The notes under the pieces: model-generated
Told to the model about the DNA's origin: nothing
Databases searched by the model: none
Seen by the model: the letters and a program-made list of their open reading frames with translations, nothing else
Origin: Spirodela intermedia
Taxonomy: Eukaryota > Streptophyta > Magnoliopsida > Alismatales > Araceae
DNA: 64,000 bases
Direction of reading: 5' to 3'
Assembly (NCBI GenBank): GCA_902729315.2
Contig: LR746269.1
Location: forward strand, 8,716,231-8,780,230
Shown: positions 18,581 through 39,363 of the stretch, piece by piece
How positions within the stretch are numbered: the first letter of the stretch is position 1
How the letters are laid out: every line of letters begins with the position of its first letter
Translations under genes and position numbers: made by a program

Positions 18581-19324
18581 TCGCTCTCTCTCTCTCTCTC
18601 TCAAATGGGCACAACAAAGAAAGGGCTTTCAGAGGAAAACTGGGTGCCATTTGATTTTAGGCACCTATCAGTGATCTTAGACACCAAACCAGCTGGGCAT
18701 CATGATCTCTAGCAAAAATGAGGGCGGAGAACGTAAAGATTCTGAATGCAATGATATTTTCCTCTGCTTTGGGAACAGAACGTTCTTCAGGCAACGGTGG
18801 TCGTGCCGTGCGGAGGTGAGAAGATTATATATATATATATATATATATATCTATCTGGAATGTTGTAAGGGAATAGAAGGTGAGATGATGAAATGAAGCC
18901 CACGGAATGAAAGAAGGGGGCGTCTCATCGTCGAGGAGCAACGGATGGGAGAGTCAGTGGGTCGGACCCAGAATAAATCTGGATGGAGCACGTGATTGGG
19001 ATTAGGCTTGATTTCGGTGCTTAAATCTAGAGATGGGCCGGGCTTACACAATACGAGCCCATTGACATCTCGGTCGTGTGGGCCGGGCCGGACCAGGCTC
19101 TTGCAGCTCGGACCGAGGGGGTGAGCCCTCGCGATCGGACGTGCTGCGCAATGCCACGATGCGTGCCATCTACGGTTGTGGCACCTGATTCGCACGTGTG
19201 GCTCGCTTCTTATATACCTGTGCTTAGACGGCAACGTCGTCAGCAGTATCGTGAAGGTAGCCGCTAGGGTTATCCATCATCGTCGCCTCTCCACGACTCT
19301 GACCGCCGGGCTCCACGCCGATCA
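18581..19324. other. Intergenic region with (CT)n and (TA)n microsatellites
   Basis: A short (CT)n run follows the permease stop (18583–18601) and a (TA)n run lies at about 18827–18850. The right part is the promoter and 5' UTR of the EF1B gene. The 127-residue minus frame at 18851–19234 has no family features and overlaps GGGCC-rich repeat-like sequence. Confidence 0.6.
19211..19216 (+). promoter_or_regulatory. Putative TATA box of EF1B gene
   Basis: TATATA stands 109 bases before the start codon at 19325, in CTTCTTATATACCTG. Spacing allows a 5' UTR of about 80 bases. This is assigned from position and motif only. Confidence 0.45.
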
Positions 19325-22300
19325 ATGGCCGCCGCCTTCGCCGATCTGCACACGGATGCCGGCCTCTCTACTCTAGAGGAATACCTTTCGAACAAGACCT
19401 TCATCTCCGGGTATGTTCTTCCGGGGAGCGGATTGTCCCCTTTCGACTCCTACTTCGGGCCTTACTAAGCTTCAGTGGGTTTTTTGCTGCTGAAATTCGT
19501 ACATCGGAAGCTAGATCTGATATTTTTTTGATACTCATTGTAGCTCTATCTGACTAATGATCTTCTCTCGGTAGTTTAGAATTCTAGTCGAAACTTGAAG
19601 ACTGATCCCTCTCTTCTGTTCCCCTGATATCTTTCATAACTTTCAGAAATGAAATCAGTAAGGATGATGTCAAGGTTTACGCTGCAGTGCCCAAGAAGCC
19701 TAGTGGTGGGTTCCCTAATGTGAGCCGCTGGTACGACAGTATCGCTTCCGTTCTCGCCGGAAGGTTGGCTTTCTTTCTTCCAATGCTCTTTTTATTTTTC
19801 TTGTTTCCAATATCTTAACTCTGTCTGCTGTCTTTTCCGGGTTTTGGTGATTCGTTTTTTAATCTTTTGTTTCCTTTCCTATTTTACCCGCATTTTTCTT
19901 CTACATTTTTCGTCCATTTCTAGGATAGGATTTCAATAGATACATGGGTACGTTTGAGAAGTTGTCATCAGTCGTCTCATCTAGCCTTAGGAAAAATCAC
20001 ACCAGAAAAATGAAGTAATCTCAAGTTTTGGCGCAATTCATTTAATTTGATGGGATACGTTTAATTTGTTGCGCTGCATCCGATTGTCCTGCCTTCCGTC
20101 AATGCGAAGTTGGGGCTCTATGCATCTTCTATTATACGGTTCATGCGTTTTTGTTGCCTTCATTGTCATATGATGATGATGATCGGTTGATATTATTTAC
20201 ATGATATTGGTGGTAGTGCAACTGATTTGGCAGTCCACCGAAGACTTCAGTTTAGTACTATTTTGAGGAACATTGGTGTCCGAGACACGTTTGCCGCACT
20301 CTCACTGTCCCTCATGAGTTCTATGGACACCATTCTATTTATTTGCATGCATATTTAGATCTATATATTTTTGTGATTTTGTACGAAAAGTGATCACCTT
20401 CACGAAGAACATTAGTTCAAATGACGTGGGGATGTAAATGGGGGGAAGTTATTGAGAGTGTTTGCCTTTCTTGGGCATTAACCATGAAAATCTGGATTTA
20501 TTGTCATGATATCCGGAATCAACCCGCAGTGATCCATATCTGTAGATTCTAATTTCTTTTAGTTTTAGCTGTTCCATTGGAGGGTAAGTCGAATGCCCCC
20601 ATGAAAATAGGAAAAAAAGATGAAACACAGAGTTCACCGATTCAATTGGAATGTACTTGTTTAGTACTCCAGATCACTATTGACTTCCATCATCTGCAGT
20701 TGGCGTGGACACTTTTGGGTAACCTTTTGTGCACATCCACTTCACCCCGACGACCCACACCCTCAATCCCCATACCCTCCTAAAAATGTGGAGAACAATC
20801 TCTGTGGCCTGCTCTGGTCTATCCTTCCTTTTTATCCATTGTTACGTGTTCCTAATTTTCACACTTCTTTCTGCCCTCATGACACAATTTATGAATATCG
20901 TGATATTTTATGAGTGGTTTTCAGTATCTTTTCGTATGGGTTATTTTTGTCAGAAACTTCGTAACACAAAGTAGTTTGGAATGTGTCTCATAGGGCCTGC
21001 CTATCTGGGCCTCCTGAAGTTGGAAACTACCTTCAAATATTCCCCATACTTTTTATTTTTATTTTTCGTGATCAGTCTCCATTGGCATTTCTTCTCATTA
21101 ATTTAGTGATTGTTCAGTTTTCATTTATAGATATATGTCGCCACTATTTTTCATACAGTTGATCTTATGCCATTGCTAAATCATTGTTCTGAGTATATTT
21201 ATTTCACCTCGCCAGGTTTCCGGGTGAAGCTGTTGGGGTGAGAATTGGTGGCCCAGCTGCAGCTGCTGCAGCCCCCGCTGCATCTGGAGCAACACCAAAG
21301 GTAATAACTTTGCTCTCAGACATTTATAACTTTTTCTCTAAACACTAGGTTTGATTTATGTGTATAGATATATCAATCTTGGAAGGTCTTTTTTCATGAT
21401 TTATATAACATCAGTTACACTAATTAACTTCTCCATACGTAATTCTATATAATATTTAATGTTAGTGTTTATTCAGATGCCTAATGGTTGCTGCAACTAA
21501 TGATTGCGTAACGAAGAGATGTTTTGGATCTCATAACCTTTTATTCTTGAGGATGTCCAGGAGGAGGAGGATGATGATGATCTGGACCTCTTTGGTGATG
21601 AGACTGAGGAGGAGAAAAAGGCTGCAGAAGTGAGGGAGACGGCCAAAGCATCGTCTAAGAAGAAAGAGAGTAAGCAACTAAATATGTGTTTGATTTCTTC
21701 CCAAAGATTATGCGTGAGCATTTTGATATCCTTGTTCAGCATGGTTTATCCCCATCCCTTAATCTCTCCTCCTGGCCCAATGGAACTCGGAATTCCTGGG
21801 AATTCTTGGCTCAGGTCTGTTTCCCCTTGCATCTGACCACCTGACCACTCTGCAGACGTCTCCAGCCCATATCCTCTCTCTCCCCTTCTTCTGACATCTT
21901 TTCTCTCTTTCTTGCTTCTCTCTTACCCCTTCTCTCTCTCTCTCGCTCGCTCGCTCGCTCGCAACCCGGCTTGTCGACGTCCCTGACGACATTAACATTT
22001 TTCTCTCTTCCACAGGTGGGAAATCGTCGGTGCTCATGGACGTGAAGCCCTGGGACGACGAGACCGACATGAAGAAGCTCGAGGAAGCTGTGCGTAGCAT
22101 TGAGATGCCCGGCCTTTTCTGGGGAGCATGTACGTTCTTCCTTCCCACCCACCCATCCTTAACGCTTCTCTCTTTTTGTAAAACGCATTTTCTCTGGAGA
22201 CCGACATAAAATGTCTTCTCCTCTCCTTCTCGCTCTCTCTCTCTCTCGGGCTCTTCTTCACTGCTCTTATGGGTTCCCTTCTCTGTCTACTGCAGCCAAG

Positions 22301-22459
22301 CTGGTTCCTGTGGGCTACGGCATCAAGAAGCTGCAGATCATGATGACCATCGTCGACGACCTCGTCTCCGTCGACGACCTCGTCGAGGAGCGTCTAACAG
22401 TGGAGCCCTGCAACGAGTACGTCCAGAGCTGCGACATTGTTGCCTTCAACAAGATCTGA
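19325..22459 (+). CDS. Elongation factor 1-beta/delta (eEF1B guanine-exchange subunit)
   Basis: Six exons (19325–19410, 19647–19763, 21216–21300, 21561–21669, 22016–22129, 22296–22459) join in frame to 224 residues, the usual length for the plant protein. The subunit reloads eEF1A with GTP during translation elongation in the cytosol. Residues 1–70 form the N-terminal domain ([14 protein letters not shown]) that binds the gamma subunit. An Ala/Pro linker follows, then an acidic segment near 97–115 ([14 protein letters not shown]), a Lys-rich piece (SSKKKESGKS), and the catalytic C-terminal domain from about 137 ([39 protein letters not shown] at the end). Intron 2 is 1.45 kb. The last two exons are clearly more GC-rich than exons 2–4. 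Plant beta and delta names are used inconsistently, so the exact subunit label is open. Confidence 0.96.
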
Positions 22460-23285: not shown

Positions 23286-25724
<2,439 letters not shown>

Positions 25725-25772
25725 GTTTCCGCGAGAGTGAGGGTGGGAGAGCGGCAAATAGAGAACGCGAAG

Positions 25773-25781
25773 AAACCCTAA
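25773..25781 (-). promoter_or_regulatory. Telo-box in NACα promoter/5' UTR
   Basis: AAACCCTAA on the plus strand (TTAGGGTTT in gene sense) lies about 50 bases before the NACα start. Telo-boxes are typical of plant genes for the translation machinery. The same element is kept in the duplicated promoter at 36520–36528. Confidence 0.6.
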
Positions 25782-26604
25782 AAACCAGCCGCGGATGATG
25801 AGAAAGCAATGCTGCTACGGTGGGGAAGATAAAACTGTGGGGTACGTGTGGTGGGCAGAGCCGCTGGACATTCTAACTACTACGTTAACCCCGAAATTGA
25901 TCCTTATTACGAAACAGCCACAAGCAGGGACAGGCGAAGAAAAGTCCTGTCGGCCCCAACCAGCCCAATAACGTACAAATTGCTTCATAAAGAATTTGTC
26001 TATAATACAAAGTCTATTTAAATGATTAATTAGTTTAAGTAAAAATATTAATTATATATTTTTGTAGAAGTTGAGTGATTAAGATACTCAAATCAATAAA
26101 TTTTCATGAAGTGAAGTATGAAATGACAAATTAAGTAAGTAAAATCGTATAATTCTTGAATTATATCTAATATTAGGTGATTTGGTGGGTGATACTGTTT
26201 CCAACTCAACCTACCTCTAAAAAATATGCCTTTGAAATGTGACTCTTGTTGTAACTGTTCTCAATCCGTGCATATTTAAGACCTATTATTATTTACATGT
26301 GACAAGTGGTGCGAGCATTCATTACATAGTAGAAACTAGTCTTCCTCTATTGAAGATATTGTAATCCATTATAGACTCCATCCATGTCCTATGAATGCAT
26401 CTTCACATAGGTGATGAACATTGAACACCCTCTCTCTTTCTCTACCTTTATCTCACTACCACTCTCTTACTACATGTCTCTCTCTCCCCCTCTCTCTCTT
26501 GAATAACTAGATGGCTAGCTTGGCCTTCTCTATCTATCTCTAATAATGGATATAAATCTCCTTGTAGTTATGCCATATGAGAGTAGATGGAGGTGTGATG
26601 TGCC

Positions 26605-29600
26605 CAAAATTATTGTTAATTTAAGCACTCAACTAAAAACTAAAATAAATTCTTTTTAATTATAAGGATTTTAGGTTGATCCTTAGGGAAATAAGAAAGA
26701 TGAAAGCATTATTTTAACGTAGAAAGAGTGAAGAGATAGGAATCATATAGTAGTTTTTGTAAATTATGAATGCCATAGGTATCTAACTCCAAAAATTAGA
26801 AAAAATATCTGAAAATATAGATAACTAGCTCTAATTTAGTATTCATAAAAACTATCTTGTAATTCAATTTTTTAATCGAAAAATATAGATAATGTGTAAG
26901 TATCCGATACTAAACTTATTTTAAAATTGTAAAAAATATATAGAAGATAAGAAACTAATTATGTTATATTTTTCTTAAAAATATTAACCTAATTTCATGT
27001 GGCACTCATGAGATCAGATTCATTCCAAGAAAAGGTTAAAGAGACAAAAAATAGGAAACGATTCTTGTAAAATCTAAATTCTTATTCTAAACACTTTCTA
27101 AAATCATGAAAAAACTATAGAAGATAAGAAAGTAATTATAATACATTTTTTCAAAAGATATTAACTTGATTTCATGTGGCACTCATGAAATCAGATTTGA
27201 TCCAAGGAAAGGTCGAACCAAGAAATTCATAAAATGATTTCCAAAGATGTGCATGATGATTCTGTCTTCAAATCACCAAAACATAATCTTTTGACAAGAA
27301 AAATATTCATTATATGTTTAAGGAAGTAAGGTATTCAAGAAAAATCCTAAATCTAAAAGAAATTGCAAGATTGGATACATATCTCTTTTGCTTACCTAGA
27401 AAATAATTTTCAATGATATGCTTGATGATTTGTCATAAAATTACCAAAACATGATTTTTTGAAGAAATAAAATATTTATCAGATTTGTAAGAAAGTAAGG
27501 TATCCAAGAAAAATCATTAATCTGAAAGAAACTAAACAAGTTGATATAGATCTCTTTTCCTTTACCTTAGTGTCACTACCAAGACATGAAAAATCAGAGA
27601 TAAAGAAGAATAACTCACTAGAAATTAAATGAAATGTCATCTATCAAATAATACTTGTCAACTAAAAAATAAAAGAGGTTCTAGTAAGTTGAGAAATGAG
27701 AGAGAAAGGTGAAGAAATCGTACTTGCAACTCTAAGACTTCAATTGTCTATCACCTAGTGGCCACCACCTATTCGCCCATGAAAGAAAAGGTTTCCTTTC
27801 ATTTGCGCTCTCCAAAGTTTATATACACACATTCTTTGGGCGTTCTTTCTCCATCCTTTGTGTGGCCTAGTTAAGGTTAATCTTTTGGGTGTTGTTCAAT
27901 TTTTTTATGCCCCAATCTGCCCTTTCTCATATTTGTGATATTTGAACTTTAACATTTTATCTTAATTCTTCTCACTTTGGAAAATCTATATAAATTAATC
28001 TCTTTAGAATAAGATTTTAAAATTTTAAACCCATGCTCTTGATAAATTGAGATATATTTTCAAGGTGATAAACCTTGGAAAAAGGTTATAAAATGTTAGT
28101 AATTAAATCCATAAATACATAATGTAGATATAGTTAGCTTTAGAGTCATTTATACATATCTCTTGACCTTTGCTCGAATATGATGAGATATAGTAATTCA
28201 TACTTATTATGACTCATTAATGTAAAAATCATATATATAATTAATTAAATTTTAATGAGAATTAAATATTTATTCAGATGAAAGGAAGAGGGATGGAAAT
28301 ATTGAGAGCGAACGAGTGTATATGTGTGTGTCAGAGAGAGAAAGAAAGAGAGAGATAGAGTTGTGGAATGTGGTGTAAAGTGGATGAATGATAAGTCTTT
28401 ATTATCATGAGTTAATAATATATTTTAACTCTTAACTCATGATAAATAGACTTATATTTATGTTAAAGTAAGAAAAAAGATTTTTAGTTGGTTAATGTAA
28501 TTTTTTGACTAATTATGTGATTTTATAATTTTTATAATCATATTTTTGAAATAAAATAAAGAGAAATAAAATAAAATAAAAAATAGATAAAAAAAGAAGG
28601 GGACCTACCAATTAGTTGGGCCTGCAAGTAGGTTAGAAGCATAGTCAAAGGACCCGTTGGTTAACTAAGCTTGCAAGTGGGTTAAAAGCACAATTATGTA
28701 GAGCCACAAGAAGGGAGCTTGAGTGGCTAACGATCAATTGGGGGCACATGTGCATCACTACCTTTTCATATCATTAGTGGTCAGCCAAGCATGGGGGAAG
28801 GAGTAGTAGTACATACATGAAATACTACATTAAAGATAAGAAGAGGTATTACTATATATGTCTCAAAACTCATAAAATAGTCAATGTGAAACTAAACCTG
28901 TGTTAGTACTCGCTGAAAAGTTTTCATTATTTTAATACTTAAAATACTTTTAGTTTATAAGAAATAAACACCTTTAGGACGTCACTAAGGGTATATAGGT
29001 AATTCACATTATCTTTTTCATGCAATTGAGCAACTAGTGAAAGTTTGAATTTCACTAGAGTTAAAACTTATGTTTTTCTTTAATCAAATCATAATTTTCC
29101 TATAGTACTAGCCAACAATTAAGTTGTCATAATCACTCAATCATAAACGAAAATGTCATCAACGTGATTCGTAAAGTATCATTCTCAATTATTGAATAAT
29201 TATGGATAAAAAAATCATAAATTTATTGAAAAAATCATTTCTGATTGATTGACGAATGAGTCATCATCAAGAAGAAGACGATCGATTGGGAGACAAGTCA
29301 CCACCCCATCAAAGCATACTAGATATGATGAAGAGCCTCTTCTTGTTACACAGACTTAAGGATGAAGCTCCTTAAGACATATCTCACCTCTATTCAACTT
29401 ATGTCCGTCATGTGATAGTCATCAGAGATGATTTGTCGGTCTATTTTATTGATTTCTAGACTTCGCAAGAAGATTTAGAGATTACCCATGTTGTTTATGT
29501 CCAATGAGAGCTTTTGAGACTATGTACATCCCACGATACTTTTTTCAAACCCATATAATTTTAATGATTACTACCACAAAGTAGAAACTATGTATTTCTT

Positions 29601-30075
29601 AAACTTAATTTTTATTTAAAATTTTAACAATTTACTTATTCAATTATGATTCTTCTCGCTTTTACAAATCTTAATTTGATCAATTAAATTATCTATAATT
29701 ATCTATGTAAGAATCATCAAATGAAATTTTATTTCCACCAGAATCATAGTTGTCAAGATGTTGATGTTATCCTAATGTTCGCACTTGAATTTTATTTTTT
29801 CATGAATTTGTAAATATATTTTATCTTCACTGTTTAGACTAATAATAATAATAAATTTATTTTTTGAAAAGAAAATCTTACCAAATATTGTCTTATATCC
29901 CTATGATCAATATGGAAAATTTCTACTATTTTTGGAATCTTTTAGAAAATTATAATTAATTTATTTGTGATAATATATTTTTTAAATATAAAAATTAGTA
30001 TTTTCTAGTTTTATAAATTTAAAATTTAGATGATTTATTATACAATCATTAAGTCATGTTAATGTACTTTGTGGG
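26605..30075. other. Left-arm-specific 3.5-kb AT-rich segment
   Basis: Sequence flanking this segment is contiguous in the right arm (around 33170), so it was inserted in the left arm or deleted from the right. It is AT-rich and without recognised genes. It contains partial tandem duplications: about 26931–27044 with 27110–27220, and about 27240–27400 with 27412–27565, with periods near 175–180 bases. Confidence 0.6.
26931..27565. repeat. Degenerate tandem duplications of ~175–180 bp
   Basis: The phrase CATGTGGCACTCATGA recurs at about 26995 and 27173 inside longer similar blocks. A second block with AAGGTAT(T/C)CAAGAAAAATC recurs at about 27330 and 27500. Copies differ by many substitutions. 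Confidence 0.6.
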
Positions 30076-30934
30076 CTTACAAGAAATCAAGAGCGAGAGA
30101 GAGAGATATAGAGAGAGCTTATAGGCTTAACTAGAACCTGGAAAAGTTTGGTTACGTGGTGGTGTTTTTGTTCGGTCCACCTTATGGCATATGCTTTCTC
30201 GCCAACAAACCCTACAAGTACATTAAAAGTTGAGAACTGTCAAAGCCCTTATTTGTTTCTCTTTCCTATCCCCTTATCTCCTTCCCTCTCTCTGAGTTTA
30301 AGGCTTCATACTCCCTTGCAATCCCCCCCTTTAGGGGTCATCTTCTCTCTCTCAACTCCTTGTGATAGTCACTTCTTTGCAACTTCCCTAAGCCGTCATG
30401 GTAGTTCCCTTGCCATTGACCACGTATGATAGAAGGACTTATAGCACCAGCTATCATCGACATTAGTAGTTGACAAGAAGCTAGTAGGCGTCCTCACCCC
30501 TTGTTTGAGAAGGTCACAATGTGGTATACGCATTGCCCTCTCTCTCTGTCTCTCTCTCTCTCTCTCTCTCGCTCTTGCTCTTTCTCTTTGTGCCTCTAGG
30601 TGGAGGGGAGTGGCCAATAAGCCTTCTTGTTCGACAGAATTTGACAACATTATTTGATTTCCTCATAAAATCCTCCCCCCACCCAATTCATAGTGAAATC
30701 TTGATGTTAGATGGCTCTACTTAATTATTCTAATCTTGGCATCATCCACTTCTTTCTTTAAATTATTTATATTCAAATTCCAATCGTGAGAAGTGCTCTT
30801 CAATCAAGGCCTCGATAAATCCTACTTCATGTTCTCATTCTTACTTAGTACTTTTGCAATATTCTTGACTAAGAAAAATATTCTCAAAAGCTTTTGCAAA
30901 AAGCCTTTAGATCAAATTCAATAGAAACTTTTAA

Positions 30935-31120
30935 TTGTGATAATATCAATCTGAGGTTGTCTCTAATAATTTTGAATTCTCTTTTTAATAATTCTGGTGA
31001 TTCTAGTTAGAAGTTGTCTCTAATAATTTTGAACTAACCTTCTGATAATTGTGGTATTTACAGTCAAAAGTTGTCTTCAATAATTTCAAATTTAAACAAA
31101 GATAATTGTGATGATTTCAG
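30935..31120 (-). repeat. Short tandem array, left arm (about 3 units)
   Basis: A unit of about 57–60 bases containing GTTGTCTCTAATAATTTTGAA and ATAATT(C/G)TGGTGAT repeats about three times. It is the mirror of the array at 32041–32340, where about five units are visible. Confidence 0.65.
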
Positions 31121-31562
31121 TCAAAGGTTTCTACAATCACACTTGAACAAAATCATAGAGATGATACCTCAAGAATGTGACTCTATTTATTTTCTAAATT
31201 CTCCAAAATTTACATTATATTATCATAATGATCAATTAAGAATAACATTACCAGCCATTATGAATTTTTGTTTGTACTATTTTAAGAATATGAATTCATT
31301 CATACACTCGTTGAACATTGAAGAAAGTATGACTCAAGGAAACGAAATATTAGTGATCAATTTTATACATTTTTTGAAATTTATGCTCTATGATAATGAT
31401 TGTGATCATGGTTTAGATTAATGTTAGCTTTCAAGACTGTTTGATGATCTTGAATGATTCAACTTGATGATTAACTTGACATGGAGAAAGGAGAACTGAC
31501 TAATATGGATCTTGAGAAGCATGTTGGGAAACATGGTGCCCATCTCCCCTTCCTCTCTCTCT

Positions 31563-31692
31563 CTCTTCCTCCCTCCCTCACCTATGTTAAATTGTTCACA
31601 TAACCTATACTCCTATATTGTTAGTTAGATGCAGATAGTAGGGGACTTGAAGATCTCACAAAGTCAATGGAGAGATGGGCATCTCAAATCAT
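31563..31692 (+). pseudogene. Relic of GPN1 intron end and exon 2 at the palindrome centre
   Basis: These ~130 bases align directly with 37552–37682, the end of GPN1 intron 1 and the start of its exon 2. The shared phrase CTCTTCCTCCCTCCCTCACC starts exactly at the junction with the right arm in the live copy. Differences are nearly all C-to-T or G-to-A (for example TGCTGAA to TGTTAAA, GCTGGATGC to GTTAGATGC, GGGGACCTGAAG to GGGGACTTGAAG). A one-base deletion (GAGCAG to GAGAG) shifts the frame, so this copy is not usable as an exon. Confidence 0.88.
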
Positions 31693-32040
31693 AATTAGCA
31701 ATAAGATTATCAAAGTGTCTTGAAAGCTAATGCTAATCCAAACCATGATCATAATCATTATCATAGAACATAAATTTCAAATAGAGTATAAAATTGATCA
31801 CTGATCTATTGTTTCTTTAAATTACACTTTTTTCAATGTTTATCGAGCATATGAATAATTTTTTATTCTAAAAATAGTACAAAAAGAGATTTATTATTGC
31901 TAGTAATGTTGTTCATGACCGATCATTATAATAATAGAACATAAACTTCGAAGAATTTAGAAAACAAATAGAGTTATGCCCCTGAAGCTTCATCTTGCAT
32001 TACTAAATATTATTTTGTTTAAGTATGATTGGGGATAATC

Positions 32041-32340
32041 TCTTATTAGAATCACCATAATTATCTGAAGGTGAATTCAAAATTATTAGAGACAACTTTT
32101 GACTAGAATCATCACAATTATAAGAACGTGAGTTTAAAATTATTAGAGACAACCTCTAATTAGACTCACTATAATTATTTAAGATGAATTCAAAATTATC
32201 AAAGACAACTTTTGACTAGAATCACCACAATTATCAGAAGGTGAATTTAAAATAATTAGAGACAACCTCTGATTAGAATCGTCACAATTATTAGGGGAAT
32301 TCAAAATTATCAGAGACAATCTTTGATTAGTATTACCATA
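32041..32340 (+). repeat. Short tandem array, right arm (about 5 units)
   Basis: Units of 57–60 bases carry AATTATTAGAGACAAC followed by TTTTGACTAGAATCA and CACAATTAT. Five copies are seen against about three in the mirrored left arm, so copy number has changed since the duplication. Confidence 0.75.
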
Positions 32341-33359
32341 ATTGAAGGTTTATACTGAACTTGATCTAAGGCCTCTTTATAAAAGCTTTTGAGAATGCTT
32401 TTACTAGTTATGAAGATATTTAAGTACTGAGCAAGTATTAGAACACGAAGTAAGATTTATCAAGGCCTTGATTGAAGAACACTTCTAACAATTGGAATTT
32501 GAATGTGAAGAATTTAAAAAAGAAAGTGGATGATATCAAGATTAAAACAACAAAGTAGATCCATCTAAAATCAAGACTCTAGTATGAATTGGGTGGGAGG
32601 AAGAGTTTTTACGAGGAAATCAAACAACATTGTCAAATTCTGTTGAACAATAGGGCCTATTGGCCGCCCCCCTCCTTCACTTGGAGGCACATAGAGAAAG
32701 AACAAGAGCAAGTGAGAGAGGGCAATGCATACACCACATCATGACTTTCTCAGACAAGAGCTACGGATGCCTACTAACTTCTTGTCAACTGCTGAAGTTG
32801 ATGACGGCCAATGCTTATAGGTCTTTCTACCACGTAGTGCTAATGGTGGGGGAACTACCATGGTTGACTAGGGAAGTTGTAGAGAGGTGATTGTCATTAT
32901 GATTTGAGGAGAGAGAAGAGGACCCCTGAGGGTGGGGACTATAAGGGGAGTCTAAACCCTAAACCCAGAGAGAGGAGGGAGAGAAAGGGATAGGGAAGAT
33001 AGAAAATCAGGGGCTTTGATGGTTCATACCTTCTAATGGACTCTTAAGGTTTGTTGGTGGACCACCACATGACCCTAGAGTGGACTGACCAAAAACACCA
33101 CCACGTAACCAAACTTTATCAACTTCTAGTTGGGCCCAAAATCTCTCTCTCTCTCAATCCTTTTGTGTCTTCTCTGCGCCCCCCCATCTACTCTCATATG
33201 ACATAACTACAAAGAAATTTACATCCATTGTTAGAGATAGAGAGGGTGCCAATCTAGCCATCATGTCATTCAACATTCATGTCATCCATTAAAACATTCA
33301 TTACATATGTGAAGATGCACTCATGTGATTTGGAGTGAGTCCATAATCGATAGGAACTT

Positions 33360-34325
33360 ACGTCAAGAACTATTGTAGTATCTGATAAAATAAAATAGAG
33401 GATGTTGAAAGCCTCAAAATTAGTTGATCAAACAAATATTTAAAATTACGAATTTATCAGATTAAAATACTAAAATAGGTAAGTATTGTGGTAAGCTCAA
33501 GGTCGATCTACAAAGAATGAGAATTAGGCGTTACTTAGTTACTATTTATTTTGATAGATAGATTTAAATCAAATCAGCTCAAAGGAGAGGCAACGGCAAG
33601 TAAGAAGAATGGTTTACTTTTCGAGTAGCTATTCCAAGGATTTACACTTTGAATCCACACTTGAATCAACCAAAATGCATATAAATCTTATGTGGAACCT
33701 CAATGGTATTTCATGCGAGTTGACGAAATGTCGGGGCATTCGAAGTTAAGTTCTTCCGCCCCTAAACGACGGCTTAAATACATAAGGGTTTATATGAGAG
33801 GATGGAAATACACGTGTAGGGCTGTGATTAATGAGGGTATTTCTTCTTTTTTGCCGCGATAAAATCAAGTGAGAGTTAGTTTCTTTTTGAGTTGATCTGA
33901 ACCGTTAGATTTAAAAATCTTGTTGTAGTCGTAGGATCTTCTTAAATGGTATACTCCATCTATCATTGATTGTGTGGACATTCTCAACGACCTCTAATCT
34001 CCTCATTTGATGATGCCATGTGTCAACACCTCAGCCCTTGATTATGTCGCTCATCTCCACAGATCAGATCTTGTCTATTGAAGCATATATCGACTTCCTA
34101 AAAACCATAAAAAGATATTAAAATTTTTCTAAAATTCTCTCATATCAATAAAAAAAAATTATGACTCTAAAACTCAGAGAAAAAATCTAAAAAAAATCTA
34201 AAATATTAAACTTCATCAAATACTTAAAAAAATAATAAATATTTATTTTTTAATATGATAACATGCTATATTATAAGATTTAAGCTCTTTCATGTCATAA
34301 TCAGCATGTTATTAGTATCTTGAAT
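33360..34325. other. Right-arm-specific ~1-kb segment
   Basis: The left arm is contiguous across this point (around 26340), so this was inserted on the right or lost on the left. No genes or terminal repeats were recognised. Ends are approximate. Confidence 0.55.
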
Positions 34326-34689
34326 AGAGCAAGACTAGTTTCTACTATGTAATGAATGTTTACACTATTTGTCACCTGTAAATAATAATAGATCTTAAAT
34401 ACGCAAGGTTTGGGAACACTTATTATAAGAGGCATATTTCAAGGGCATATTTCAAGAGGTAGGCTGAGTTGGGAACAATATCACCCACTAAATCACCTAA
34501 TATTAGAAATAATTTGATAAACTATATGATTTTACTTAATTAATTTTTCATTTCATATTTCATTTCATGAAAACTTATTGATTTATCTTAATCACTCAAC
34601 TTCTACAACAATATATAAATTAATAATATTAAATAATCATTTAAATAGAATGTACTCAATGAATTTTCAAGAGTAATGAATCTACTCAA

Positions 34690-36385
34690 TGAATTTTCAT
34701 CTGAATATTTAATATGTTTATTTTTAATTATGTTAGAATATTTTCATATTTAACCTCATATTAAACATATTTAGAATTAGGCATAATTCAACTTTTTTAG
34801 TTGATCTATGTTTGTTTCTTATCATAAAAATATCATGTATTTAGTGTTTGAATAATCTCTCCCTTCTTATGATGGCAAAATCATACACAAATATCTCATA
34901 TAAAAATTAGATGTATGCATAGAATTTAATGTGTTAGTAGGAAATTGTTCATGTGAGGAATTTAAATAGAAAAATTTAAAACTTGAACAATTAGACACGA
35001 ATCCATATAGTAACTCCCACCAGCTAAGATTCATAGCATGAATGCACACAAAGGAATAATCAATTAGAACATGGCAAGATGCACTCATTGAAGGGAGCTT
35101 TTCACAAATGAATCCCATTGTGCATCATTAGAGTGAATTGCCTATGCTCTTGAGTCCCTTTGTATAGACTCATCATTCAATTTTGTGCATCATCAATCTA
35201 TTAACATAATTTGTTCATCATCACAAATGTAGACTCTTCAATCTATTTTGGTCTTAAAGGAAAAGAGATATTCTTGAACAAACAATGAGTTTTAAAAACA
35301 GATTAAATCTTTTTGATGAGCTCAAAAAAGTATTATCAATATTTTTTCAAACTCAATGTAATTTTTCTAGTTTAAAATAATCATGTTAATCTTTTATATA
35401 TTTCTAGATATTTATGGGTGATTTTAACTAGATAATATGCTAATATAGTGAGATTTTTTATCATAATTATACTAGAGTGAATCCTTCCTCTTTAAAGATT
35501 GTAGACATGATAGAAAACTGTGAATAAATAAGAATTGTGTTAATCTTATTAGTGGTTAAGCTCTAAACAACTATTACAATTGTCATCATTTGATTATTAA
35601 TTTTCACATGAGAATTGTTGTCCCACAATCAACTAAGCCCATTAAAAGGGAGATTACGTTCTTGAATGAGTGAGTTTGATAGATCACAAACCGTCTCCCA
35701 CTTCATGATCCTTATTTGTACAAGATTAGTGTTCTTCAACTTATTTCTTCTAAATTTGTGGCATGAAATTGGTAAAGAAATATTATTTTACCAAAATTGC
35801 ACAAGATGAGCTAATATAATCTAATGTCCATGATCTCTTTTTGTATGTGTATCCACATAATATCGTGTTTCTCTCGCCATGCACTTCAATGTAACCTAAT
35901 GTGCCAATTAGAGTCACTCTATCTAGATGCTCACGTTTAATTGTATCTTCTAAGGGGCTACTTTGGCAGACTTATGCTCAAGATGTCAATTTGTGGGATT
36001 TAAGTTGTTAAATAAAAATAAAAAATAAAAAATCATGAACAACCATTGGCTTTGAAGACTAAGTGAAATTTATTTAATCAAATGTCATGAATGTTTTAAT
36101 GTAATATATATAAGAATGCTAATATTCTTGAGCTCTCCCACTGGGCTGGGCAAAACCTTCATAAAAAGGAAAATGGATGATATCTTGTAAGAGTTTGGTT
36201 TGATAATAGTTTAATTATATATATGTACATTCAACTGAGAGAAGTTTTTCGGTTTTTAAAAGTATTCATTTATTGACGGATTTATATTATGGACAAATTA
36301 TTTAGGAAGCAATTTGTATGTTACTGGCCGGTTGGGATCCTCGGGAAATGAATAAACTTTCCCACTTACTCGTTTACCGGTGGCT
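34690..36385. other. Right-arm-specific ~1.7-kb segment
   Basis: The left arm passes from NACα promoter (25920) to the 26.0-kb block with only ~65 bases between, while the right arm has about 1.7 kb here. A short direct repeat, CTCAATGAATTTTCA, occurs at 34654 and 34684 near the left edge. The segment is AT-rich and without recognised genes, and may be a non-autonomous transposon. Confidence 0.5.
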
Positions 36386-36519
36386 TGTTAGTAATAAGGA
36401 ACAATTTCAGGGTTAACGTAGAAGTTAGAGTGTCTAACGGCCCTGCCCACCACAGGTACCACACAGTTTTACCTTTCCCGCCGTAGCAGCATTGCTTTCT
36501 CATCATCCGCGGCTGGTTT

Positions 36520-36528
36520 TTAGGGTTT
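36520..36528 (+). promoter_or_regulatory. Duplicated telo-box upstream of the chimeric GPN1 gene
   Basis: TTAGGGTTT lies 49 bases before the ATG at 36577, inside a promoter block (36395–36576) that matches the NACα promoter, including CATCATCCGCGGCTGG and the CGTAGCAGCATTGCTTTC phrase. GPN1 is thus predicted to be driven by a NACα-type promoter. Confidence 0.6.
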
Positions 36529-36576
36529 CTTTGTGTTCTCTATTTGCCGCCCTCCCACCCTCCCTCTCGCCGTAAC

Positions 36577-39363
36577 ATGACGGGGCAGACGCAGGAGGAG
36601 CTCCTCGCCGCCCACCTCGAGCAGCAGAAGATCGATGTGAGCTATCCCCACGTTTTCTTTTCTTTATATTCTCCAATGTCTTTGCCAGTGCGATAGGTGT
36701 GAGTTAGATTATATGCGATTTCCTCCCCCATTAAATTAATCTAGTTAGCAGAGTTCTTTTTAAATGCTTCCGAATCTGCTGTTCTTTTTTATCTGGATTT
36801 ATGACATCTTCTTTTGATTTCTGATCCAAGAAACTTTGGACGTTGGCCAGTGAAGGAAGAAAGCTTTTGTAATTTCGCTTTTGTATCATATCATTTTCTC
36901 CTCCCTTATAAATTTCTGTAACTGGGGAGATGCGAACGAATTTTTTCTCCAAGGTTCGATCAAACTAGGTTTGAAAATGTTTGAATTTATCGATGAAGGT
37001 CGACAGTGTCGTTCGTCTTGTTCGCTCTGCATTCACTTGGCTTGTTTTGATTTTTATTAAGCTTCTTAATTCTTTGAAGCTAGGGGCTATTTCCATCTGA
37101 CAGAGATTTTGTGAGGTTTATTAGCTCCATATGATTTAGAATTTGATCATGATGTGGCTTTCTATTGGCACATTCACGTTTGTCTCTTACGGGGGACTAC
37201 TTCCATCAAGATCAACCATGGTAGGAATGCAGCATTTAGCGCCTCGTGGATAGACTAGTTCCGGTCTCGTACTGTTGCAAACTGACAGATCCAATAGTCT
37301 ATCTATATTTTATGTTCCTTGCATGGTTTCTTTCTCATGTTTTTTTCTGAATTATATTTTGCCTTCCATCTGTTTGTCGATTCTGTTCTTGATGTTATAT
37401 GCATGTTTCCATTTATTGCTTGCCAAAATACTTTTATTCATTATCTTTTTTGTTTAATCATTGATGCAATTCACATTGCCTTTGCTCCCCTCTTGGTATC
37501 TTAAACGGAAAAAGTCCAACATCAATGATGAACTTTTCCTTTCTGTACTATCTCTTCCTCCCTCCCTCACCTATGCTGAATTGTTCACATAACCTGTGCT
37601 CCTACTGTTAGCTGGATGCAGATAGCAGGGGACCTGAAGATCTCACAGAGTCAATGGAGCAGATGGGCATCTCAGAATCATCATCATCATCATCAGGATC
37701 TTCATCCATCAATTTCAAGAAGAAACCGGTGATCATTATCGTCGTGGGAATGGCAGGCACGTTCTACGTTTTTTCCCCATTTATGGGCTTGAATTAGATT
37801 CGTCCCTCATCAAAATGGAGAGAGAATGGGTGCGAGAGAGGGAGAGAGATAGTCGTCTGGAAGCCTCATCGTTCTTTCTCCTCCTCCAGGGAGCGGGAAG
37901 ACGACCCTGCTTCATCGTCTGGTTTGCCACACACAGTCTTCAAACATTCGAGGGTATGTCCTCAACCTCGATCCGGCGGTGATGACGCTCCCCTTTGGCA
38001 CCAACATAGACATAAGGGACACTGTCCGCTACAAGGACGTGATGAAGGAGTTCAAGCTTGGCCCCAACGGCGGCATTCTCACCTCTCTGAATTTATTTTC
38101 CACAAAATTTGACGAGGTACAATCCCTGAAATTATTTTTTTTCTGCAAGCCTTGTACCAATGTTTTGTCCCCTCATGATCCCAAACTTCCTCTTTTTTCT
38201 AACCAGTGGCTGATCTCTGAATTTATTTTTTTCCGCAAGGTTTTTACAATGTTTTGTCCCCTCGTGATCCCAAATTTCCTCTTTTTCTAACCAATGTCTG
38301 GATTCATCTTTTTTGTACAAAGTTTTGTATTGTCCCATGTTTCCTTCTTTTGCATGGTAGATCTGGAAATCGTTGTTGACCTACCTACCTGGGTTTCTAG
38401 GTCATATCGGTGATCGAGAGGAGGGCGGACCAGCTCGACTATGTCCTGGTCGACACACCTGGTCAGATCGAGATCTTCACGTGGTCGGCATCAGGGGCGA
38501 TAATCACTGAGGCCTTTGCCTCCACCTTCCCCACAGTCATCGCCTATGTGGTCGACACGCCCCGCTCTGCCAACCCCGTCACCTTCATGAGCAACATGCT
38601 CTACGCCTGCAGCATCCTCTACAAGACCCGACTCCCCCTCCTCATTGTCTTCAACAAGGTCGACGTCGCCCGCCATGAATTTGCCCTCGAGGTTGGCTCT
38701 CTCTCTCTCTCTCCCTCTCTCTCTCTAATTCTCTGTATCTCTATCACTATCTTTGCTATTGTTCTTACGAAGAAGGATTTGAATGGGGGTAGTGGATGGA
38801 GGATTTCGAGGCGTTCCAGGCGGCGGTAGAGATTGATACATCCTACACAGCGAGCCTGACAAGGAGCCTCTCACTAGTCCTCGACGAGTTCTACAAGAAC
38901 ATCCGATCGGTTGGGGTGTCGGCCGTCTCAGGAGCAGGTGTGCAGGAGTTCTTCGAAGCTGTGGAGACGAGCGCACAAGAATTCATGGAGGGTTACAAGT
39001 ACGTGGAGAGTTTGCTTTTTTGTATGCGTCTTGAGGTTTCGATTCATGGAGAGTTGACTTTTTGTGCTTCTATTCACGATGCGTTGACTTTTTTGCAGGG
39101 TTGACCTCGACAGGAGGCGGGCGGAGAAGGAGAGGATGGAGCAGGGGCGGCGGCGGGAGAGCATGGAGAAGCTGCGAAGTGATATGGAGAAATCAAAGGG
39201 GGGGACCGTCGTGCTGAGCACCGGGCTGAAGGGTGCGGACCCCACCAGAGAGGAGGAAGAGGAGGTGGAAGAGATGGAGGAGGTCAGGTTCTCAGAGGGA
39301 GAAGAAGAGGGAGATGAGGACGCGGACGGAGAGGATGAAGAGGTCTCCCATTTTGTTTTCTGA
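36577..39363 (+). CDS. GPN-loop GTPase 1 (QQT2/XAB1 type) with a NACα-derived first exon
   Basis: Six exons (36577–36636, 37612–37756, 37890–38116, 38401–38691, 38793–38998, 39099–39363) join in frame to 397 residues. GPN1 helps assemble and import RNA polymerase II; the Arabidopsis relative QQT2 is needed for early embryo divisions. Motifs: P-loop GMAGSGKT at 66–73, GPN at 126–128, DTPGQ at 162–166, NKVD at 229–232, SAVSGAG in exon 5, and an acidic C-terminal tail. Exon 1 is not a normal GPN1 start: it encodes [20 protein letters not shown], one residue different from NACα exon 1, and joins exon 2 in phase 0. Intron 2 has a GC donor (GCAG|GCACGT) splitting the P-loop codon. If exon 1 were skipped, Met35 (ESMEQM) could start a protein that keeps the whole GTPase. 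The native first exon was not found. Confidence 0.92.

Follow-up and report, generated by a model that had tools for sequence, protein, structure and literature searches.

In the 64,000-nucleotide stretch of the Spirodela intermedia genome analysed here (hereafter, the window), the promoter, leader, exon 1 and first ~0.9 kb of intron 1 of a NACα gene are repeated in inverted orientation upstream of exon 2 of GPN1. This arrangement probably arose by a single inverted duplication at an ancestral pair of divergently oriented NACα and GPN1 genes, through which the promoter and first exon of GPN1 would have been swapped for those of its neighbour. The features identified are listed below in the coordinates of the window.

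23286-25724, minus strand: intact parental NACα gene, four exons (25724-25665, 24172-24091, 23880-23750 and 23618-23286)
24759-31451, no strand assigned: palindrome left arm, comprising part of NACα intron 1, exon 1, the promoter and the spacer to the old GPN1 exon 1 (self-comparison)
26596-30063, no strand assigned: dispersed repeat, left arm only (self-comparison and genome search)
31452-31702, plus strand: palindrome centre with the GPN1 relic
31481-31522, plus strand: putative relic of the original GPN1 exon 1
31564-31695, plus strand: second, truncated copy of the end of GPN1 intron 1 and the start of exon 2, a direct copy of 37552-37684
31703-37551, no strand assigned: palindrome right arm, an inverted copy of the left arm (self-comparison)
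33383-34312, no strand assigned: dispersed repeat, right arm only (self-comparison and genome search)
34650-36259, no strand assigned: extra sequence confined to the right arm, its end lying 317 bp upstream of the captured start codon
36260-36576, plus strand: promoter and 5' leader captured from NACα and now preceding GPN1 (sequence match)
36577-36636, plus strand: captured NACα exon 1, proposed as GPN1 exon 1, ending in phase 0
36637-37611, plus strand: hybrid intron 1, of which 36637-37551 derives from NACα intron 1 and 37552-37611 from GPN1 intron 1
36993-37007, plus strand: first exon (MKVDS) implied by the public homology-based model, within the NACα-derived intron
37612-37756, plus strand: GPN1 exon 2 (...VGMA), followed by a GC donor (open frame, protein comparison)
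37890-38116, plus strand: GPN1 exon 3
38401-38691, plus strand: GPN1 exon 4
38793-38998, plus strand: GPN1 exon 5
39099-39363, plus strand: GPN1 exon 6 with the stop codon

The segment 36260-37551 aligns with 26031-24759 at 86.3% identity with gaps counted (E value, 0) and at 89.8% identity at aligned bases, and chance likeness to NACα is excluded. The captured exon 1 and exon 1 of the NACα gene encode the same residue at 19 of 20 positions and differ at 5 of 60 bases. The captured exon consists of 20 open codons, retains the ATG in the start context AACATGA, and is followed by the donor CGAT/GTGAGC, the first six intron bases of which are the same as those of NACα's own donor. The likeness to NACα stops at 37551, and GPN1's own sequence runs from about 37552, the join being blurred by a few bases owing to a CT-rich tract. 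The sequence beyond the join can be assigned to GPN1 because 37552-37684 recurs at 31564-31695 without NACα sequence before it. The acceptor of GPN1 exon 2 is CTGTTAG/CTG, and the captured exon, exon 2 and the four exons that follow form one open frame of 397 residues with phases 0/0 at the junction. The predicted gene is thus chimeric in that its coding sequence comes from two identifiable parental genes, namely NACα (exon 1) and GPN1, and in that one reading frame crosses the junction. A genome search with 36260-37760 gave four matches, namely the segment itself, the NACα gene, the relic at 31.5 kb, and a 67-bp stretch of exon 1 belonging to a second NACα gene, located on C1.

A preliminary description of this DNA had already proposed an in-frame fusion of the NACα first exon to GPN1, with NACα intron 1 continuing for ~0.9 kb before giving way to GPN1 intron at 37552, and both proposals agree with the results above. 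It had also suggested that GPN1 has acquired the NACα promoter and leader. The arrangement does carry both: TAGGGTTT, a telo-box-like motif, lies at -56 in NACα and in the captured copy, and TGGGCT, at -243 in NACα, is absent from the copy. The palindromic context and the GPN1 relic in the palindrome centre were not part of that account.

The GPN1 gene of the window is identical to the public S. intermedia protein P0001 over the 377 residues encoded between the start of exon 2 and the stop codon. P0001 scores 267 bits to PF03029 (ATP_bind_1) and has its nearest similarity to plant GPN1, the two features by which it was assigned to the GPN1/QQT2 GPN-loop GTPases. The NACα gene encodes 201 residues, with the NAC domain at residues 63-118 and the UBA domain at residues 161-200. 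Both domains lie outside the 20 captured residues and P0001 has neither, and the fusion therefore does not qualify as a NACα subunit, which is defined by a NAC domain and a C-terminal UBA domain. In our literature search, no papers naming GPN1 together with QQT2 were found, and no claim is made that the fusion is absent from print. Intron 2 of GPN1 has an apparent GC donor (TGGCAG/GCACGT, at 37756/37757) with an ordinary AG acceptor, and intron 3 contains a tandem duplication of ~89 bp (38122-38300).

The captured NACα unit forms one end of a locus-specific palindrome, whose arms (24759-31451 and 31703-37551) flank a 251-bp centre (31452-31702). Self-comparison revealed the collinear inverted matches 24759-26031/37551-36260, 26013-26358/34649-34316, 26364-26418/33351-33297, 26499-26593/33273-33181 and 30110-31451/33150-31703 (the last as two overlapping pieces), and the interruptions of the palindrome are each confined to a single arm. 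For the interruption at 34650-36259, which shows a low CpG o/e (0.22), the genome search, in which 40 of 169 candidates were scored, reported no second copy. When the 136.5-Mb genome was searched with the inner left arm, the partner arm and a CT microsatellite were the only other matches among 40 scored candidates out of 296, and the 98 bp that precede the relic GPN1 copy (31452-31549) match only themselves in the genome. The direct copy in the centre comprises the final 60 bp of GPN1 intron 1 and continues into exon 2, where it stops short and the inverted arm starts. In the working GPN1, the sequence shared with the relic starts within a few bases of the end of the NACα copy. The present order is a-b1-b2-a(inverted)-b2-c, where a is 24759-31451, b1 is 31452-31563, b2 is 31564-31695 and c is the remaining part of GPN1. 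A 57-bp tandem repeat occurs in ~5.3 copies in the right inner arm (32040-32343) and in 2.3 copies in the left arm (30956-31086).

The simplest ancestor would have had the order a-b1-b2-c, with NACα (minus strand) and GPN1 (plus strand) as divergent neighbours and with GPN1's own first exon in b1. One inverted duplication, of a kind possible through replicative template switching, would have converted this order into the present one. The copied block, running from NACα intron 1 through exon 1 and the promoter into the spacer, would have been joined to GPN1 inside GPN1 intron 1, and because both introns are in phase 0, the promoter, leader, start codon and first exon of GPN1 could have been replaced by those of NACα in a single step. 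The original first exon and a truncated exon 2 would have been left in the palindrome centre and have apparently been eroded there by cytosine methylation. If so, the GPN1 protein should now start with NACα-derived residues and be transcribed like NACα. A comparable arrangement is the DUP-NML-INV/DUP rearrangement at human PLP1, which has been ascribed to template switching (PMC6902434, in part). As in that class, an inverted and a direct duplication, here the arms and the relic at 31564-31695, flank a copy-neutral stretch (31452-31563, of which 31452-31549 is single-copy); unlike the human case, the locus is a plant one and a promoter and first exon were swapped. Microhomology at the joins is only suggestive, inspection by eye having revealed a shared ATCATC near the first, with a few extra bases, and nothing clear at the second.

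As for the start of GPN1, the first in-frame ATG of exon 2 lies at 37654, and the in-frame codon directly before exon 2 is a stop. Since only one GPN1 locus was found in the genome, and this locus is intact and resembles its relatives along its whole length, something must supply a promoter and a start. The Arabidopsis relative of GPN1 is essential. We infer that 36577 is the start in use and that transcription proceeds from the captured promoter. Both public S. intermedia proteins (P0001 and P0002) begin with M(K/N)VDS-LDAD, and on the plus strand of the window an uninterrupted run of MKVDS codons is present only once, at 36993, in the part of the intron that derives from NACα; a homology-based gene model is thus seen placed inside an intron of the donor gene. 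P0002 probably represents clone 7747. Because the first residues of both proteins fit a NACα-like intron, the NACα/GPN1 join is probably common to both S. intermedia clones, as judged from protein residues rather than from DNA. The two proteins disagree over portions of exons 4 and 5, perhaps through assembly errors.

The captured exon may instead be a bystander in a real palindrome, with a transcript that arises within the intron sequence of NACα origin or the CT-rich stretch and a protein that starts at 37654 (MEQMGIS...) or 36993, a reading that we consider rather unlikely. The N-terminal stretch of GPN1 varies in length and sequence among plants and a shorter protein could work, 36993 is the start of the public models, and the captured exon 1 is without visible constraint (see below). 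However, the donor of the 36993 exon, GTCGTT, is far from the usual consensus, GTRAG, and the leader, the start context and the donor retained by the captured unit are those of a working gene. In addition, the 36993 exon comes from models made with GeMoMa, a similarity-based predictor, and the term 'RNA-seq' occurs 0 times in the main text of the source (PMC7645714, in part). The use of the captured exon as GPN1 exon 1 is thus preferred here. A NACα N-terminus that is general to GPN1 in plants, which would make this exon ancestral, was not seen: none of the 217 fetched proteins (the best 120 of 7400 matches plus 97, mostly short unnamed fragments) contained a 5-mer of either NACα exon-1 peptide. 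The NACα-GPN1 junction found no match in protein searches with the full-length chimera (best 120 of 7400) or with the 105-residue N-terminus (97 matches).

Divergence between the arms was compared in three blocks. Transversion divergence is level along the arms, being 5.0% (63/1258) in the outer block A, 4.8% (16/332) in the middle block B and 4.8% (62/1303) in the inner block C (A versus C, p 0.78), and is best fitted by one inverted duplication of a single age. Transitions amount to 5.2, 6.9 and 13.4% in A, B and C, respectively (A versus C, p 5e-13). CpG o/e falls from 0.83 and 0.82 for the outer blocks through 0.35 and 0.28 for the two inner arms to 0.00 for the centre. The centre GPN1 copy differs from the working copy by 11 substitutions, all 11 being G/C in the working copy and A/T in the relic, and 9 of its 10 transitions lie at CHG sites. 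Transversions are fewer in this copy than in the outer block (1/130; p 0.025), which is explained only in part by constraint on the working exon. The erosion of the core points to long-standing cytosine methylation, located where the old GPN1 promoter would lie. As the centre and inner arms have been eroded by C-to-T-type change, the old promoter looks silenced. The Arabidopsis PAI genes form an inverted repeat. The signs of CG and CHG methylation resemble those of methylated plant inverted repeats, e.g. the PAI genes (PMC3203196, in part) and hairpin transgenes (PMC9263138, in part); unlike in those systems, methylation is deduced here solely from erosion, and the outer, promoter-bearing blocks have been spared.

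K2P in the outer block is 0.110, which would date the duplication to about 8 million years ago at a substitution rate of 6.5e-9 per site per year, a rate uncalibrated for duckweeds. The fusion would postdate the split from Wolffia, if the Wolffia protein model is right, because the Wolffia protein has a GPN1-like N-terminus. For Spirodela polyrhiza, no protein named from this species was seen among the best 120 of 7400 matches.

An ATG at 31481 in b1 opens MEKGELTNMDLEKH, which is followed by a GT in phase 0. GPN1 starts with MEKGDGKDSACMDVDES in Wolffia and with MEAGEKSEPVQMDSEEP in Anthurium. In a comparison with the first 30 residues of these two Araceae proteins, scores as high as that of the relic were reached by 18 of 2000 dinucleotide shuffles and by 9 of 3454 overlapping segments of the window, the relic itself being among these nine. 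Its best-scoring partner is the Anthurium protein, and the likeness of MEKG to the Wolffia protein was noted by eye. Against 16 proteins the relic scores 32, with rice best, in a control-free comparison. The match is weak, was tested after being noticed and is suggestive only, and 31481-31522 is regarded as a probable relic of GPN1's original exon 1. Alternative gene models of other plants place an intron just upstream of the exon-2 homologue, i.e. in oak (...SSAAQ/AKGKEKEEL), in rice species (...LEDQ/TDAKGKGKSEEL), and, with a one-lysine shift, in mango; the models give the place of the intron, not its phase, and may in some cases be mispredicted.

The relic retains an ATG and a frame that is open for 14 codons up to a phase-0 GT, and could in principle still serve as exon 1, the old promoter remaining in use and the transcript being spliced across about 6.1 kb to 37612. 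We regard this as improbable, in that GTTGGG is a weak donor when judged by the usual consensus, an exon-2 acceptor belonging to the relic intervenes before 37612, and CpG and CHG sites have been lost from the region in the manner of silenced DNA. Independent capture of the GPN1 fragment at 31.5 kb by a fold-back or gene-capturing transposon, unconnected with the NACα copy, is very improbable. Taken by itself, the inner block does resemble a fold-back element whose loop encloses a captured piece of a gene, and gene fragments are recombined with other genes here as they are in Pack-MULE, Helitron and CACTA capture (PMC1947982, in part). Unlike in such capture, no dispersed element carrying the arms, and no terminal repeats dispersed in the genome, were found among the 40 of 296 candidates scored. 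In addition, the inner blocks are collinear with the NACα arms and show equal transversion divergence, and on these three points the transposon origin was rejected. False inverted repeats are known from long-read assemblies, but a palindrome created by chimeric long reads is hardly credible here, as the arms differ by 10-18% at aligned bases and carry separate insertions, and the first residues of P0002 also fit a NACα-like intron.

The three synonymous codon changes in exon 1 had been taken in the preliminary description as a hint of constraint on the peptide. When the changes were polarised with exon 1 of the C1 NACα gene, two of the three, GAG>GAA and AAG>AAA, proved to have arisen in NACα, and this hint thus finds no support. 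A3G, a replacement, and GAC>GAT, a synonymous change, fall on the GPN1 branch, with the C1 gene as the sole outgroup, parallel change possible and the third base of codon 3 not polarised. The two copies differ by 11.2% in the proximal promoter, 7.9% in the leader, 8.3% in exon 1 and 9.4% in the intron. No selection is visible on the captured exon 1, leader or proximal promoter, their divergence being about that of the intron, and in the GPN1 copy the peptide gives no sign of being under selection, nor any evidence to the contrary. Divergence is greater in the distal promoter (22/126, 17.5%; p 0.008 against the intron), a contrast that does not distinguish between the two copies.

A change of GPN1 behaviour through altered ribosome contact, which had also been suggested, finds no support, the 20 captured residues lying outside both NACα domains. 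Because the GPN1 proteins of different plants vary at the N-terminus, the exchange probably changed the protein little, and its likely effect is an expression control like that of NACα. Of the best 120 of 7400 protein matches, 106 start with MD or ME. An N-terminus of the MT- type belongs to a different class of N-terminal processing from MD- or ME-, and its presence in place of these would alter the processing class of GPN1.

In Oryza, 310 fusion genes have been attributed to duplication and exon shuffling at the DNA level (PMC9199173, in part). As in those genes, parts of two identifiable parents have been joined in frame by DNA rearrangement in S. intermedia; unlike those genes, no extra gene was formed, the only GPN1 found having exchanged its first exon for that of a neighbour, with a putative relic persisting. 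A single-copy gene may thus swap its promoter and N-terminus without an extra-copy stage. The record is unusually readable, with the donor, the joins, the putative lost exon and the eroded old promoter region all contained in 15 kb, and promoter turnover via palindromes becomes testable in a mainly asexual plant. It is conceivable, although doubtful, that the palindrome acted as a promoter relay, in that it provided GPN1 with an in-frame first exon and a new promoter and, being self-silencing, shut off the old one; GPN1, which is linked to RNA polymerase II import, would then be under the promoter of a translation factor and carry a NACα N-terminus.

Two further observations concern the NACα gene. 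In the uncopied part of its intron 1, an exon-like open stretch flanked by AG and GT is present at 24635-24566 (minus strand). A translation elongation factor 1B-like gene, recognized by eye only, lies at 19300-22450 (plus strand), tail to tail with NACα, and two translation-factor genes would thus be neighbours.
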